Positions 1,038-35,763 of a stretch of DNA of 64,000 bases are shown one piece after another. Position 1 is the first letter of the stretch, and the number at the start of each line of letters is the position of its first letter. The notes under the pieces were generated by a model. The model saw nothing but the letters and a program-made list of their open reading frames with translations, was not told where the DNA came from and searched no databases. Origin of the DNA: Frankia casuarinae. GTDB taxonomy: Bacteria > Actinomycetota > Actinomycetes > Frankiales > Frankiaceae. The stretch is taken from contig NC_007777.1 in NCBI RefSeq assembly GCF_000013345.1, positions 4,216,001 to 4,280,000 on the forward strand, given 5' to 3'. The position numbers were made by a program, and so were the translations under genes.

Positions 1038-1632
1038 CTGTCATGCTCAGACCGCGCCACCCCCCAGCACGATCGCCTACCTTCCCGGAACGCGCCAGCA
1101 CCGAGAACCGCGATGTGCCTTGGTCAGTTGGACCCGCTGCTTGCCAGAACAGCGGACTAGGACAAGGCGGACATTACCATCCGCTCCCGGGTAGGCCAGC
1201 AGCGGCATATCCCGGTGGGCGACGTACCCGCCCGATCGATACGCACCGTGTTATCGCCTGGCCGTGACCCGAGCTTATCGAGAGCCGCATTGGCGCCATC
1301 AACCGGTCAGTACACCGCCAAAACGGGCGAGATAATGACGTTCTGCTTCGTAAGCTCTTATGGAGTCACTCGCCCTCGGTCACTGTGGGTACACGAAGGA
1401 ACTGGGCGGAACGTCTCGACGACCTACCCGATGGCGCTACCCGGTCTGGTACACGACGCCTGATACACGACACGAGGTACGACAGCCCGTCCCCGCTGTC
1501 GGGTGTCATCGAAGATTTTAGTATGACATCCTATTTTCGGCCTAGATTTCAATAGGAAGCCAAAGGTTTTAGTAGCTGACCCGGTTTGGTGACGGCACGG
1601 CGCGGTGCAGGCCCGGAGCGGGAGCCGTTCAG
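1038..1632 (+). other. Gene-free stretch upstream of the lanthipeptide remnant
   Basis: About 595 bp with no convincing gene on either strand. The part around 1320-1590 is clearly more AT-rich than its surroundings, with runs such as 'gattttagtatgac' near 1512. A lanthipeptide precursor gene would be expected here, upstream of lanB, but no short ORF with a leader followed by a Ser/Thr/Cys-rich core was recognised. The missing 5' part of lanB suggests that a deletion removed this part of the locus. Confidence 0.6.
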
Positions 1633-3566
1633 GTGCGACTGCGTGGGTATCCGGTGGGGTATCGCGGGAGCGTGCTGCCCACGCCGCCACCGGGGATCTC
1701 CGAGCGCGACGAGCGGCTGCTGGTGCTGACCTGGCAGGCGATGGCCGACGGCACCCGCGAGATCATCCTGACCGACGACGTGATCGGCGAGCTGACCGGC
1801 GAAACGTTTGACGACCGGTACATCCCGCCACACGTAGAGTTGTCCGCCCGCATCCACGCCGCCACCACCCAAGCACTGGATCGGGGCGACTTCCTGCTCA
1901 CCGTCGCGCCCGCCCGCTCCGCCGGCACCCTCACCAGCCGGTTCACCCCGACGGCCACCGGGTCCGGCCTGGCGCGGGCGTACCGGGCACTGCCCGCCGC
2001 CACCGCCGGGGCGCTGCGGGTGCAGATGTCCTTCGGGCCGCTGTACCCGCACGCGGAGAACGTCTGCCGCGTCCCGGCCTACCTCGACCACGTGCTCCCG
2101 CTGGGCGAACACCGCCAGCCCGGCGACGACAGCCTGCTCACGATGGACGACCTGGCCATCACCGCGACCCGCGACCGGCTGCACCTGGTCAGCATCTCGC
2201 GTCGTCAAGTGGTTGAGCCGCAGGTGTTCCACGCGCTCGCACGGGACAAACAGCCCCCGCCGCTGGCCCGGTTCCTGGCACACCTGCCAGGGCGTTCTCC
2301 GCCGCCTGGTACCAGTTCGATTGGGGACCGCGCGTCCGGCTGCCGTTCCTGCCACGGGTGCGCTACCGGCGCACCGTCCTGTCCCCGGCCCAGGGGCGGC
2401 TTGCCCCCCGACGACCTCCCACCCGGCCAGGACGGTCCCGGCCAGTGGAGGCAGGTACTCGACCGGTGGCGGCGCCGCTGGGACTGCGCTGGGACTGCCC
2501 TGACGTGGTCGAGCTCCGCGACGCGGACCGCACGCTGCGCCTCACCCTCAACGAGCCCGCCCACGCCACCCTCCTGCACGCCCACCTCAAACGGCACGGC
2601 CAGGCGATCCTGTACGCGGCCACCCCGGCGGCCGACTACGGGTGGATCGACGGCCACGCCCACGAAATCGCGCTGCCCCCGGTCACCATCTGCCCCGCTG
2701 CACCCGGCCCGCTGCACGGCCTCCTACCCGTCGTGACGAACACACACGGGCACCTGCCCGGCGCCCCGGACGCCACCTGGCTCTCGGCGAAGCTGTTCAC
2801 CCATCCCGAACGGATCGGCGAGATCGTCGCCGAGGCGCTTCCCGGCCTGCTGGCCACGCTCGACACACCCGCGTGCTGGTGGCTGCGATACCGCAGCCGA
2901 CAGGAGACAGACCACCTGCGCCTGCGGCTGCGCACTACCCCCGACTGTTATGCGCAGTACTCGAACGCGGTCGGGGAGTGGGCGCAGCGGATGCGCCAAG
3001 CAGGACTGGCCGGGCGGCTGGTGATCGACACCTACTCCCCGGAAGTCGGCCGCTACGGGCATGGCGAGGCACTGGACGCCGCGGAGAACGTCTTCGCCGC
3101 CGACTCCGCCACCATGGCCGCCCTGCTGCGGCACCAGCCCACCACCGAGGTCGACCTCGGGCTGGTGGTGGCGAACATGGTAGGCATCGTCAGCGGGTTC
3201 TTCGGCGATCCCAACGAGGCGATGGACTGGCTGGCCGCCCGGCCGGCCCCGGCTGCCGCTGCGGCCCTCGACCGGGCGGTGGCCGAGCGAGCGACCCAGC
3301 TCGCCACCGACCCGGCCGGGCTGTGGTCGCTGTCCGGCTGGACCATCGACATCGGGCCGGCGTGGGACAACCGCGCCGACGCGCTGGCCAGCTACCACAA
3401 GGCGCTGCCACCGGAGGCGAACACCGACGTGGTGCCGGAGTCGCTGCTGCACATGCACCACAACCGGGCCGTCGGCATCAACCGGGACAGCGAACGCACC
3501 TGCCGCCGCCTGGCCCGGCAAGCCGCGCTCACCTGGCGAGCCCGCCGTAGCAGTGGTGCCCGGTGA
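1633..3566 (+). pseudogene. Class I lanthipeptide dehydratase (LanB) remnant, truncated and frameshifted
   Basis: LanB enzymes glutamylate Ser/Thr of a precursor peptide using Glu-tRNA and then eliminate glutamate. Here about the first third is missing: the frame picks up in the middle of the glutamylation domain ('ISERDERLLVLTWQAM...IILTDDVIGELTG'). It runs in frame 1 to about 2288, jumps to frame 3 ('AFSAAWYQFDWGPRVRLPFL'), appears again in frame 1 at about 2400-2490 ('LPPDDLPPGQ...QVLDRWRRRWDC'), then returns to frame 3 to the stop. The C-terminal elimination domain (SpaB_C / thiopeptide-type domain) is intact from about 2500. The last shift coincides with an 11-bp tandem duplication. The stop overlaps the lanC GTG start (GTGA). 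It is clearly non-functional as a single protein. Confidence 0.85.
2477..2498 (+). repeat. 11-bp tandem duplication causing a frameshift in lanB
   Basis: The unit 'gctgggactgc' occurs twice back to back (2477-2487 and 2488-2498). Removing one copy would join the frame-1 'RRRWDC' segment directly to the frame-3 'PDVVELRDADRTL' segment, so this looks like a recent slippage event that broke the gene. Confidence 0.85.
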
Positions 3567-4451
3567 CCTACACCGACCCGTACACGCCACCGCCCGAGCA
3601 CCATCCCGCACCCGGCGGGGGTCAATCCCTGGCAGACGGGGCCGCCGGGCTGGCGCTGCTGCACATCGCCTATGCCCGCGCCGGGATCGGAGACTGGGCC
3701 ACCGCCCACCAATGGGTCAAGGCCATGACCGCCGAACCCGTGGCCGCGGACACGGGCGCCGGCCTGTACCGGGGCGCCCCGGCGGTCGCATTCGTGCTGC
3801 GCACCGCCGGCCAGCCCGTCTACACCGGCGCACTGCACACCCTCGACGAGCACATCGCCGCGATCACTTGCACCCGCCTGGAGGCAGCGCACGAGCGGAT
3901 CGACCGCGGCGAACTGCCCGCGCTGCGGGAGTTCGACCTGATCAACGGGCTGACCGGACTCGAATGGGTCAACGCCGCCGCCGACCAGCCGGGTCCGCAA
4001 CGCCCGTCCTGGTGCTACGGCGCCCCCGGCCTGGCCCGCGCCCGCCACCTGACCGCCCAGGCACTGGACACCCCGAACAGGGTGGCCGACGCCAAGGCCA
4101 CGCTCGTCGCGTGTCTCACCGACGAGGCTCAACTCGCCCAACTCGGCGACGACTCGCTGTGCCACGGCTGGGCCGGGCTGGTGCACGTCTCCCGCCGGAT
4201 ACTCGCCGACACCGAACCCGGCGGCGAATTCGCCGAGGTCCTGTCCCGGTTGGAACACCGCTGGCGTCACCGCCGCGCCCAGGCGGCCCGAAAACTATCG
4301 GAGGTGAGGGGGATGCTGGAAGGCGACGCCGGAATCGCGCTCACCGATCTGCCGCCGGGCACCGGATGGGACGCCTGCCTGCTCACCGTCCCGCCCACGG
4401 CCGGACCAACGCACTCGCCCGTATCCGCAAGTACACACACGAAGGAACCGG
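3563..4451 (+). pseudogene. Lanthionine synthetase C-like cyclase (LanC) remnant with internal deletion
   Basis: LanC proteins are zinc-dependent alpha-toroid cyclases that form the thioether rings. The start GTG at 3563 overlaps the lanB stop. Recognisable parts are the N-terminal 'SLADGAAGLALLHIAYARAG', then 'GLTGLEWV', then the zinc-site pieces 'SWCYGAPGLARA' and 'LCHGWAGL', and the end '...LEGDAGIAL...GWDACLL'. Family members have roughly 100 more residues between 'GLEWV' and 'RPSWCYG', including the conserved 'AHGIAG' segment, which is absent here. The normal stop after 'GWDACLL' is also missing; the frame runs on to 4846 inside the methyltransferase remnant. The two zinc-site motifs survive, but the fold cannot be complete. 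Confidence 0.83.
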
Positions 4452-4822
4452 ATGACCAACGCCACCAGCACCCGCCCCGAGGACCTGCGCGAGCAGATGA
4501 TCAGCAACATCCGCACCGCTGGTCACCTGCGCTCCGAGCGCATCGAGCAGGCGTTTCGGGCCGTTCCCCGGCACCGGTTCGTTCCCGCGGCCTCGGTCGA
4601 GGAGGCGTACGCCAACAAGGCGATCACCATCAAGCCCGGCGCAGACCGGCCCGCCAGTTGCATCTCCGTGCCGACCGTGGTGGCGATGATGCTCGGTCAG
4701 CTCGAACTGACCACGCCCGCCGCGCCCTGGCCGAGACCAGCTACGACCGAGTGCGGGTGGTCACCGGCGACGGCGCCATCGGCGACGCGGACCACGCCCC
4801 CTACGACAAGATCATCGTTACG
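4452..4822 (+). pseudogene. Isoaspartate-methyltransferase-like lanthipeptide tailoring gene, 5' fragment
   Basis: This is the front part of a PCMT-like O-methyltransferase of the kind that accompanies lanB/lanC in FxLD-type lanthipeptide loci. Frame 3 gives 'EDLREQMISNIRTAGHL...RVPRHRFVP'-like PCMT N-terminal sequence up to 'VPTVVAMMLGQLEL'. The S-adenosylmethionine-binding motif I ('VLEIGAGTGY'-type) that should follow is deleted. The gene then continues in frame 2 with 'RRALAETSYDRVRVVTGDG' and 'APYDKIIVT', where it stops abruptly at the insertion boundary (4822). The rest is found after the insertion, from 6813. The deletion of motif I means that excising the insert would not by itself restore the enzyme. 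Confidence 0.82.
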
Positions 4823-4922
4823 GAACTGTTGACCGGACTTTCCTGAGGTCGAACGGCGTGTCGTAGGGCAGGGTCGGACAGGTCGGAACAGTCTGCATCT
4901 CTCTGATCTTGGAGGGTGCTGG

Positions 4923-6158
4923 GTGTTTGAGGACAGCGATCATCGGGTGATCGAGGCGATCCGGCTTCCGCTGTGGGGAAGCGTGGTCGCGTCCGACGGC
5001 GTGGTGCCGTGGAGGCTGGTCGACGGCCTCGGTGAGCCGGTCGAGCCGGTCGAGGTCTTCCTACGGGACTTCGTCGCGCAGGGCCGGTCGGCGAACTCGG
5101 TGCGCAGCTATGCGCTGGCGTTGCTGCGGTGGTGGCGGTTTCTGGTCGCGGTTGGAGTGGCCTGGGACCGGGTGAGTCCGGCGGAGGTCCGGGACTTCGT
5201 GCTGTGGCTCGGGCAGGCGACCAAGCCGGTCGCGGCGGCGCGGGTCGGGTCGCGGGCGACCGTGGGGCAGGTCAACCCGGTGACCCGTAAGCGCCACCTC
5301 GGGGACGGCTACGGGCCGGCGACGGTGCGGCACAGCAACGCCGTGCTGCGGACCTTCTATGAGTTCTGGCTGGAGCGTGGTGAGGGGCCGCTGGTGAATC
5401 CGGTTGTGCTTGCTCGGGCGGGCCGGGGCCGGGCGCACGCGCACCACAACCCGCTGGAGGCATTCCGTCCGGAGGGGCGGCTGCGTTATAACCCTCGGCT
5501 GCCGAAGCGGAAGCCGAGGGCGATGCCGGACGAGCGGTGGGACGCGCTGTTTGCGGCGATGGGCCGTAACCGGGACCGGGCGATCCTGGCGCTGGGCGTG
5601 TCCACCGGTGCCCGCGCGGCCGAGCTGCTCGGCATGCGCGGCGCGGACCTGGACTGGGGTGGCCAGCTGGTGCGGGTGGTCCGCAAGGGGACGCGGGCCG
5701 AGCAGTGGCTGCCGGCGAGCCCGGAGGCGTTCGTCTGGCTGCGTCTCTACCTGGCCGACGTCGGCGGCGGTGTGCTGGGCGCGGGTGATCCGGTCTGGCG
5801 GACGGTCTATCGGCGCGGCGGGGTCCACGAGCCGTTGAACTACGAGGCGCTGCGGGCGGTCTTCCGTCGGGCGAACCGCCGGTTGGGCGCGAACTGGACG
5901 ATGCACGATTTGAGGCACACCTGTGCGATTCGGATGGTGCGCGACGGCCGGCTGTCGCTGCGCGACGCGCAGACGATCCTCGGCCACGCCCACCTGTCGA
6001 CGACCCAGCTCTACCTGGAGCAGGACGACGAGGAGGTCTTCGCTCGGGTCCGGGAGCATTTGGCTGCGCGGGAAAGACCTCGCCCCGCGCCCCCAGCGCC
6101 GGCGGCCCTCGGCTACGACCCCGCTGACCTCGCGGTCCTGTTCGGGAACCCGAGGTGA
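4923..6158 (+). CDS. Tyrosine recombinase / phage-type integrase
   Basis: A 411-residue site-specific recombinase. Residues about 30-160 form the SAM-like core-binding domain ('FVAQGRSANSVRSYALALLRWWRFL'). The catalytic domain follows with the box I Arg ('STGARAAELLGMRGADLDW'), the H-x-x-R box ('MHDLRHTCAIRMV'), 'ILGHAHLSTT' and the nucleophile Tyr in 'TQLYLEQD'. All key residues are present, so the enzyme may be active. A strong ribosome-binding site (GGAGG) precedes the GTG start at 4923. The stop overlaps the start of the next gene. The gene is intact while the host gene around it is decaying, so the insertion may be the younger event. Confidence 0.9.
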   Translation: MFEDSDHRVIEAIRLPLWGSVVASDGVVPWRLVDGLGEPVEPVEVFLRDFVAQGRSANSVRSYALALLRWWRFLVAVGVAWDRVSPAEVRDFVLWLGQATKPVAAARVGSRATVGQVNPVTRKRHLGDGYGPATVRHSNAVLRTFYEFWLERGEGPLVNPVVLARAGRGRAHAHHNPLEAFRPEGRLRYNPRLPKRKPRAMPDERWDALFAAMGRNRDRAILALGVSTGARAAELLGMRGADLDWGGQLVRVVRKGTRAEQWLPASPEAFVWLRLYLADVGGGVLGAGDPVWRTVYRRGGVHEPLNYEALRAVFRRANRRLGANWTMHDLRHTCAIRMVRDGRLSLRDAQTILGHAHLSTTQLYLEQDDEEVFARVREHLAARERPRPAPPAPAALGYDPADLAVLFGNPR

Positions 6159-6812
6159 TGCCTACCGCGGTCGCGGCCCCAGCCACCAAGCAGGCCATCG
6201 GCCCAGGGGCGTCGGGCTGGGAGCCGGCCGCGCGGCCGGTCGGCCCGTGGGATACGGCGTCGTTGGACGACGTGCTCGCGGCTGTGCCGACCTTGTCGTG
6301 GTGGAACGCGAAGCGGCAGCAGGCGCAGCGGTCGGTTGCCGGTGTCGAACTGCTGCTGGACTGGCTGGGCCGGGTGCCCGGCGGCTGGCAGGACCGGTGG
6401 GAGCATGCCGAGGCGATGCTCGGTCCCAGGTGGGCGACCTGGTCAGCCGCCATTCCCGAGCCCGACAGGCCCTGCGGCGAACGCCATCGCGTGGTGCTGA
6501 CCCGAGGGCTGGCCTGTCTGCTGCGGATGAGGCTCGTCCGGCCGAGCTACCCGTTCCTGACCACCTACGGGCCGACGACGACGTTCGCGGTCGTCCGCGA
6601 CCTGGTGAGCCCGGAGTTGTTCGCCTGCGCGGCCGACGCCGCGCGGGCGTGTGGCGGCCATTCCGAGAACGTGCTCAGGAAGGCGCTGAACGTCCTGACC
6701 GCGATCGTGATCCATACCGGTGGCAGCCTGAACGAGGTGACCACAGGCGACCTCCTCGCGTTCCAGTCAGCCACGGCGCCCAGCCGTGGCAGCAAGATCA
6801 AAATCCGGATAA
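6155..6812 (+). pseudogene. Second recombinase-element protein, 3'-truncated
   Basis: The start (GTG 6155 or ATG 6158) overlaps the recombinase stop, so the two were translated together. About 219 residues are native, from 'DTASLDDVLAAVPTLSWWNAKRQQAQ' to 'LLAFQSATAPSRGSKIK'. The style (helical, Trp/Arg-rich N-terminal part) resembles the N-terminal DNA-binding part of the larger recombinases that follow an integrase in three-gene sets, which are several hundred residues longer. No catalytic Arg-His-Arg-Tyr residues are reached before the border at 6812. Beyond it the frame runs out of phase through the methyltransferase fragment to a stop at 7021. The function is not established. Confidence 0.6.
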
Positions 6813-32718: not shown

Positions 32719-33219
32719 TCACCCGCGGGAGTGCCGCTCAAGGACGATCGCGTGACGCATCGCGGCGCGTCCCCGGCGGGTGTCCCCGGCATCTCCATAG
32801 GAGACCGCGAGCCGGTACCAGCGACGCCATTCACCCGGCGCCGCCTCGACCTCCGCCCGACGCTGGGCGAACGCGGCGTCGGCCGAGGCGCGGTCGATCC
32901 GGCCCGACGGCCGGCGCACGAGAACCGGCTCGTCGGCACGGGCGCCGGGGTCGAAGCCGCGGGCGGTGCCGGACTCGACGTCAGCCGTCGCATCCGCGGC
33001 TACGTCGAACATCCGGGCAAGCCGCTCGGTGTCGCGGCCGAAACGCAGCTCACGCAGGATGACGACGGCGCCGATCATCGGAAGCAGCACGACACCGAGA
33101 CCGAGTCCACGGGCCGCCCAGCGATCGTCGCCGAGCAACTGGATTCCCCGCCACCCGATCAGCCCGAGGTAGAAGCCACACGCCGCGACGAGCACGGCCA
33201 CCAGCCACCGGGCCCTCAC
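32719..33219 (-). CDS. Membrane protein with a C-terminal TPR-like motif
   Basis: 166 residues from the GTG at 33219, preceded by GGTGGGG. Two hydrophobic helices lie near the N-terminus ('WLVAVLVAACGFYLGLIGW' and 'ARGLGLGVVLLPMIGAVVIL'). The C-terminus has one tetratricopeptide-like helix pair ('EWRRWYRLAVSYGDAGDTRRGRAAMRHAIVLER'). A TPR-type gene next to dapB is common in actinobacteria, so this fits the conserved order. The start overlaps the stop of the Hsp70-signature ORF as GTGA, implying coupled translation. The function is unknown; the TPR motif suggests protein-protein contact. Confidence 0.7.
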   Translation of the reverse strand: MRARWLVAVLVAACGFYLGLIGWRGIQLLGDDRWAARGLGLGVVLLPMIGAVVILRELRFGRDTERLARMFDVAADATADVESGTARGFDPGARADEPVLVRRPSGRIDRASADAAFAQRRAEVEAAPGEWRRWYRLAVSYGDAGDTRRGRAAMRHAIVLERHSRG

Positions 33220-33440
33220 CTGGACGCCCCACCGGATGCCGACGCCACCGGGCCGTCCGGATCCAGCCGGATCCGCGCCCCGGGTGCCGCCAAGGTCGCC
33301 ACGACCGGCATCCGCCGCTTGACCAGGGAGCACACGTCGTCGGGGCGCGCCCGGGCCAGGCAGCTGAACGTCGTACCAAGATCGATACCAAAGACGCTAC
33401 GGGTACCCGCCGGGAAACGACGGTCAACGTGTCCGACCAC
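33216..33440 (-). pseudogene. Short ORF with the Hsp70 (DnaK) phosphate-binding signature
   Basis: A 74-residue frame from GTG 33440, with a weak 'agatagg' site before it. Residues about 15-28 read 'VFGIDLGTTFSCLA', essentially the Hsp70 family signature 1 that binds ATP phosphates. The next 40 residues ('RARPDDVCSLVKRRMPVVATL' and onward) resemble the start of a DnaK-like ATPase only loosely and then end. No other Hsp70 piece was found nearby. It overlaps the TPR-like gene by GTGA, which argues that it may still be translated. It is either the stump of a deleted Hsp70-like gene or a real micro-ORF. Confidence 0.55.
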
Positions 33441-33505
33441 ATCCGGAAACCTATCTTTCGCGGCCCGTGGTGGCAGCAGACACCTGCCCCAAGATGCCCG
33501 CGGCG

Positions 33506-35763
<2,258 letters not shown>

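Follow-up and report, generated by a model that had tools for sequence, protein, structure and literature searches.

Leaderless genes of the Actinobacteria carry a published mark, a TANNNT box approximately 12 bases before the start codon (PMC3160421). One paper on Casuarina-infective Frankia, in which genome reduction has been described, concludes that genes have been discarded (PMC4117964). The window analysed here is a stretch of 64,000 nucleotides from Frankia casuarinae (NC_007777.1, positions 4,216,001 to 4,280,000). It contains a 74-codon frame that is very probably an in-frame deletion fusion, likely to be only a short translated leader for the membrane protein gene that follows.

The dapB-linked hsp70 locus in Frankia

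In relatives, the gene order is an M16-type peptidase, dapB, hsp70 and then the downstream genes. A dapB orthologue is found in nearly all relatives, and within the genus it lies directly before hsp70. The longer Hsp70-like gene that the preliminary description proposed seeking in close relatives is present in 10 of the 12 other genus members, as a complete hsp70 of approximately 600 codons after dapB; the intact orthologue in L041 encodes 617 aa and matches Pfam HSP70 with an E value of 1.2e-87. In the remaining two members (G012 and G008), the assemblies are fragmented and contigs break at the locus. Both give partial dapB matches, and ORF2 matches that start at contig starts; in G012 the end of ORF2 is intact and the membrane gene is present.

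ORF2 encodes an uncharacterised protein of 800–900 aa (809 aa in L041) and adjoins hsp70 in Frankia (L041, oriented 4163-6592, raw 1410-3839 minus; L082, 8140-10257). A Pfam search of ORF2 returned no match. By eye, it contains a J-domain-like stretch and a fibronectin-III-like stretch, neither confirmed by Pfam. By comparison, the ancestral cluster read dapB, hsp70 (about 600 codons), ORF2 (about 800–900 codons), membrane gene.

Candidatus Frankia californiensis and Candidatus Frankia meridionalis have dapB followed by the membrane gene, hsp70 and ORF2; in Frankia sp. CIT1, dapB is followed by the membrane gene and hsp70, and no ORF2 match was found after hsp70. In this group (L082-L084) the membrane gene therefore lies before hsp70 and not after ORF2, the module having been rearranged within Frankia. 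Conserved motifs of the CIT1 hsp70 (L084, 5926-8200) are altered in unusual ways (GIDLGATYS, LGGATFD), and independent decay of the same hsp70-ORF2-membrane module is possible in this strain. An apparent N-terminal truncation of the Candidatus Frankia meridionalis hsp70 was rejected, as it reflects a masked run of N.

The F. casuarinae genome is a single contig of 5.43 Mb, 99.94% complete; of the 12 genus relatives searched, 11 have a larger one. It retains two full dnaK-type genes. No orthologue of the dapB-linked hsp70 or of ORF2 was found elsewhere in the genome; the best matches are to a second Hsp70/ORF2-like pair, located at 4.404 Mb, whose members share 52% and 34% identity with the lost genes. 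Since relatives have both pairs, the dapB-linked copy has been lost rather than moved. An ORF2-like gene thus adjoins the second Hsp70 as well, and ORF2 is read as an uncharacterised Hsp70 partner.

The fused frame and its junctions

The features of the locus in the window are as follows.

33506..34333, minus strand: a gene taken to be dapB (4-hydroxy-tetrahydrodipicolinate reductase), which flanks the locus upstream, is conserved and fixes its position; orthologue 72-86% identical
33448..33453, minus strand: TAGGTT, a retained -10-like box that begins 13 bases ahead of the GTG (counted from its first T); conserved across the genus and in most other genera compared
33440-33216, minus strand: fused frame, GTG at 33440-33438 and TGA at 33218-33216, encoding 74 aa, MVGHVDRRFPAGTRSVFGIDLGTTFSCLARARPDDVCSLVKRRMPVVATLAAPGARIRLDPDGPVASASGGASR
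33351..33440, minus strand: codons 1-30, from the N-terminus of the dapB-linked hsp70, with the phosphate-loop signature GIDLGTTFSCLAR; codon match to the full hsp70 of 10 relatives
33309..33350, minus strand: codons 31-44, ARPDDVCSLVKRRM, equivalent to hsp70 residues 73-86; 14 of 14 residues identical in 10 relatives
33216..33308, minus strand: codons 45-74 and stop, from the C-terminal tail of ORF2, in frame with the hsp70 stump; by alignment to the L042 ORF2
33217..33219, minus strand: GTG at which the membrane gene starts, in GTGA overlap with the stop codon (TGA) of the fused frame; the same ORF2/membrane-gene overlap in L041, L042 and L043
32719..33219, minus strand: the membrane protein (166 aa), intact but orphaned from the hsp70-ORF2-membrane module; weak TPR-like helix pair towards the C-terminus

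The fused frame lies immediately downstream of dapB on the same strand. Within the N-terminal coding region of dapB (window 34248-34310) there is a short tandem repeat of CCGGTTACCGGGACAGCG-like units, encoding repeated residues.

Residues 18–27 of the 74-aa protein, GIDLGTTFSC, form the phosphate-1 loop (GIDLGTTxS) of Hsp70/DnaK. The Pfam HSP70 model (PF00012) gives only a weak match to residues 16–35 (E 0.16, below the cut-off), and NCBIfam likewise gives weak Hsp70-type matches; comparison of the locus was decisive instead. When the 74 residues were searched against 58 related genomes, the first 31–33 were up to 90% identical to the same-locus hsp70 of related species (best E 3e-13), and residues 22–44, approximately, gave separate matches 160–200 bases further along the same long frames in genus relatives. 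That the frame is spurious, a product of GC-rich DNA in which an Hsp70-like motif arose by accident, would agree with the Pfam value and with the abundance of long spurious frames (83 ORFs of at least 50 aa around 28–40 kb), but it is refuted by synteny and by codon-level identity with true hsp70 genes, and we give it practically no weight. On these alignments the signature is true homology, and the frame first described from its Hsp70 signature is real, running from GTG to TGA on the minus strand.

Two junctions were mapped. At the first, 42 hsp70 codons (126 bp) are missing, in frame, between the near-repeats CTGGCCCGG and CTCGCCCGGG, an arrangement that would suit slippage or recombination as the cause of the loss. 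The preceding piece, codons 1–30, has 82-90% amino-acid identity to the closest relatives. At the second, the window reads CCG GTC GTG GCG ACC ... after the ATG of codon 44, and the counterpart at the end of the L042 ORF2 is CTG GTC GTG GCG ACC TCG GCC GGG GCC CGG ... TGA. The tail aligns as GTCGTGGCGACC...GGGGCGCGG...TGA in the window against GTCGTGGCGACC...GGGGCCCGG...TGA in the L042 ORF2; it also shows small in-frame indels relative to relatives, with which the last 30 residues align poorly. From the hsp70 start to the membrane gene start there are 221 bases in the window versus 4158-4461 in relatives, a total loss of approximately 3.9-4.2 kb, to which the first deletion contributed 126 bp. 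Comparison with relatives thus shows two deletions, one inside hsp70 and another of about 3.8 kb that begins at hsp70 codon 87 and extends to the ORF2 tail.

A misassembly that brought together far-apart stretches of hsp70 and ORF2 genes that are in truth intact would also produce such a frame, but the single-contig genome holds neither orthologue elsewhere, there are two separate junctions, and the tail differs from relatives by small in-frame indels as well; this is very hard to credit. In relatives this locus holds an intact orthologue of the hsp70 remnant, and the breakpoints can be mapped, as expected of a pseudogene, which bears out the earlier suggestion of a stump of a deleted DnaK-like gene. 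The frame is an ordinary, well-resolved deletion scar.

Only residues 1–30 and 73–86 of about 600 are left; the full nucleotide-binding domain (DLGGGT, the connect and phosphate-2 motifs) and the substrate-binding domain are absent from the 74-aa peptide. The loss of the substrate-binding domain and of nearly the whole nucleotide-binding domain means that the peptide cannot function as an ATPase. It might still have been kept as a new small protein, binding for example the membrane protein or another Hsp70. The frame is open through two junctions, and its 44 retained hsp70 codons show few amino-acid changes (pN/pS 0.05-0.11 versus the closest seven relatives), with four synonymous changes and one amino-acid change unique to the window, the latter at a column that varies among relatives. 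However, selection before the deletion fully explains the low pN/pS: hsp70 itself evolves slowly (pN/pS among relatives mostly 0-0.25), and few changes are therefore expected if the deletion is recent. The codon-conservation comparison that had been proposed is consistent with a recent deletion and also with some selection acting on the peptide; it does not separate the two. The C-terminal 30 residues derive from an unrelated protein's tail, and the fused frame is seen in one genome only. A functional micro-protein is consequently very unlikely. The alternative first put forward, a small mimic of the Hsp70 loop that is produced along with its partner, finds no support at the locus: no relative has a short version of hsp70, and the overlap with the membrane gene, like the last 30 codons, comes from ORF2, a different deleted gene.

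The upstream box and the membrane gene

The deletion fusion retains the promoter-like box and start codon of hsp70 together with the stop codon of ORF2, which overlaps the start of the membrane gene. All 11 genus sequences (10 relatives and the window) carry AAAGATAGGTT upstream of hsp70, and the bases further upstream vary. Among eight sequences from other genera, TAGGTT occurs in seven and TAAGTT in one, 6–9 bases before the GTG. Genome-wide, GATAGGTT followed by ATG or GTG 4–8 bases later is found at only two places, one of them here. As a Shine–Dalgarno site the box was rejected; its AGG lies 10–12 bases from the GTG and is a poor match. Because of this, and because the T-A-n-n-n-T form is kept across genera, as in leaderless actinobacterial mRNAs, a -10 box is preferred, and TAGGTT is likely to be the promoter of a leaderless hsp70 mRNA.

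If so, the mRNA would start at the GTG, and ribosomes would translate all 74 codons, terminate at the TGA and reinitiate on the GTG that overlaps it. Restart at the GTGA would keep the membrane gene expressed, and survival of the box suggests that the fused frame is probably a leaderless translated leader for it. That selection has kept the frame open, as a coupling leader maintaining expression of the orphaned membrane protein, can be proposed only tentatively and is rather doubtful. That both junctions are in frame and the tail is open could reflect constraint on the open frame and not on the peptide itself. Were this true, the deletion of two genes would have created a short regulatory frame.

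The GTGA overlap with the start of the membrane protein (33219-32719, minus strand), noted in the preliminary description, was confirmed, and on comparison with relatives it is inherited from the lost ORF2. The membrane protein is 70-75% identical to its orthologues. Its gene has a pN/pS of 0.33-0.39 versus relatives, which suggests that it was still constrained during at least part of its separate history. The TPR-like character first attributed to it is reflected only in sub-threshold matches of orthologues (E 0.02-0.08, one repeat at most); the window copy gave no TPR match. Its proposed association with Hsp70 has indirect support, since hsp70, ORF2 and the membrane gene stay neighbours in two gene orders. 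A partnership with Hsp70, and a function shared by the three genes, is therefore plausible on gene order.

Comparison with described systems

The locus offers a clean, readable case of gene loss in the reduced genome of a nitrogen-fixing symbiont, and a warning that deletion scars can show up as a signature motif inside a short open reading frame. It draws attention, too, to an hsp70-ORF2-membrane protein module that is uncharacterised and conserved in Frankia; only the membrane member of this module is kept here.

The dapB-linked Hsp70 of Frankia, for example that of Frankia torreyi CpI1, Frankia sp. QA3 or Frankia gtarii, resembles the fused frame in locus, start region, phosphate-loop signature and upstream box. 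It differs in that some 600 codons are intact in relatives, whereas here two short pieces run on into the tail of the gene that followed. The placing of the TAGGTT box, which has its first T at 13 bases from the GTG, is like that in leaderless mRNAs of Actinobacteria (PMC3160421). Loss by deletion in a 5.43-Mb genome is shared with the deletion pseudogenes of reduced symbiont genomes; unlike these, the frame has stayed open through both junctions and still overlaps the next gene.
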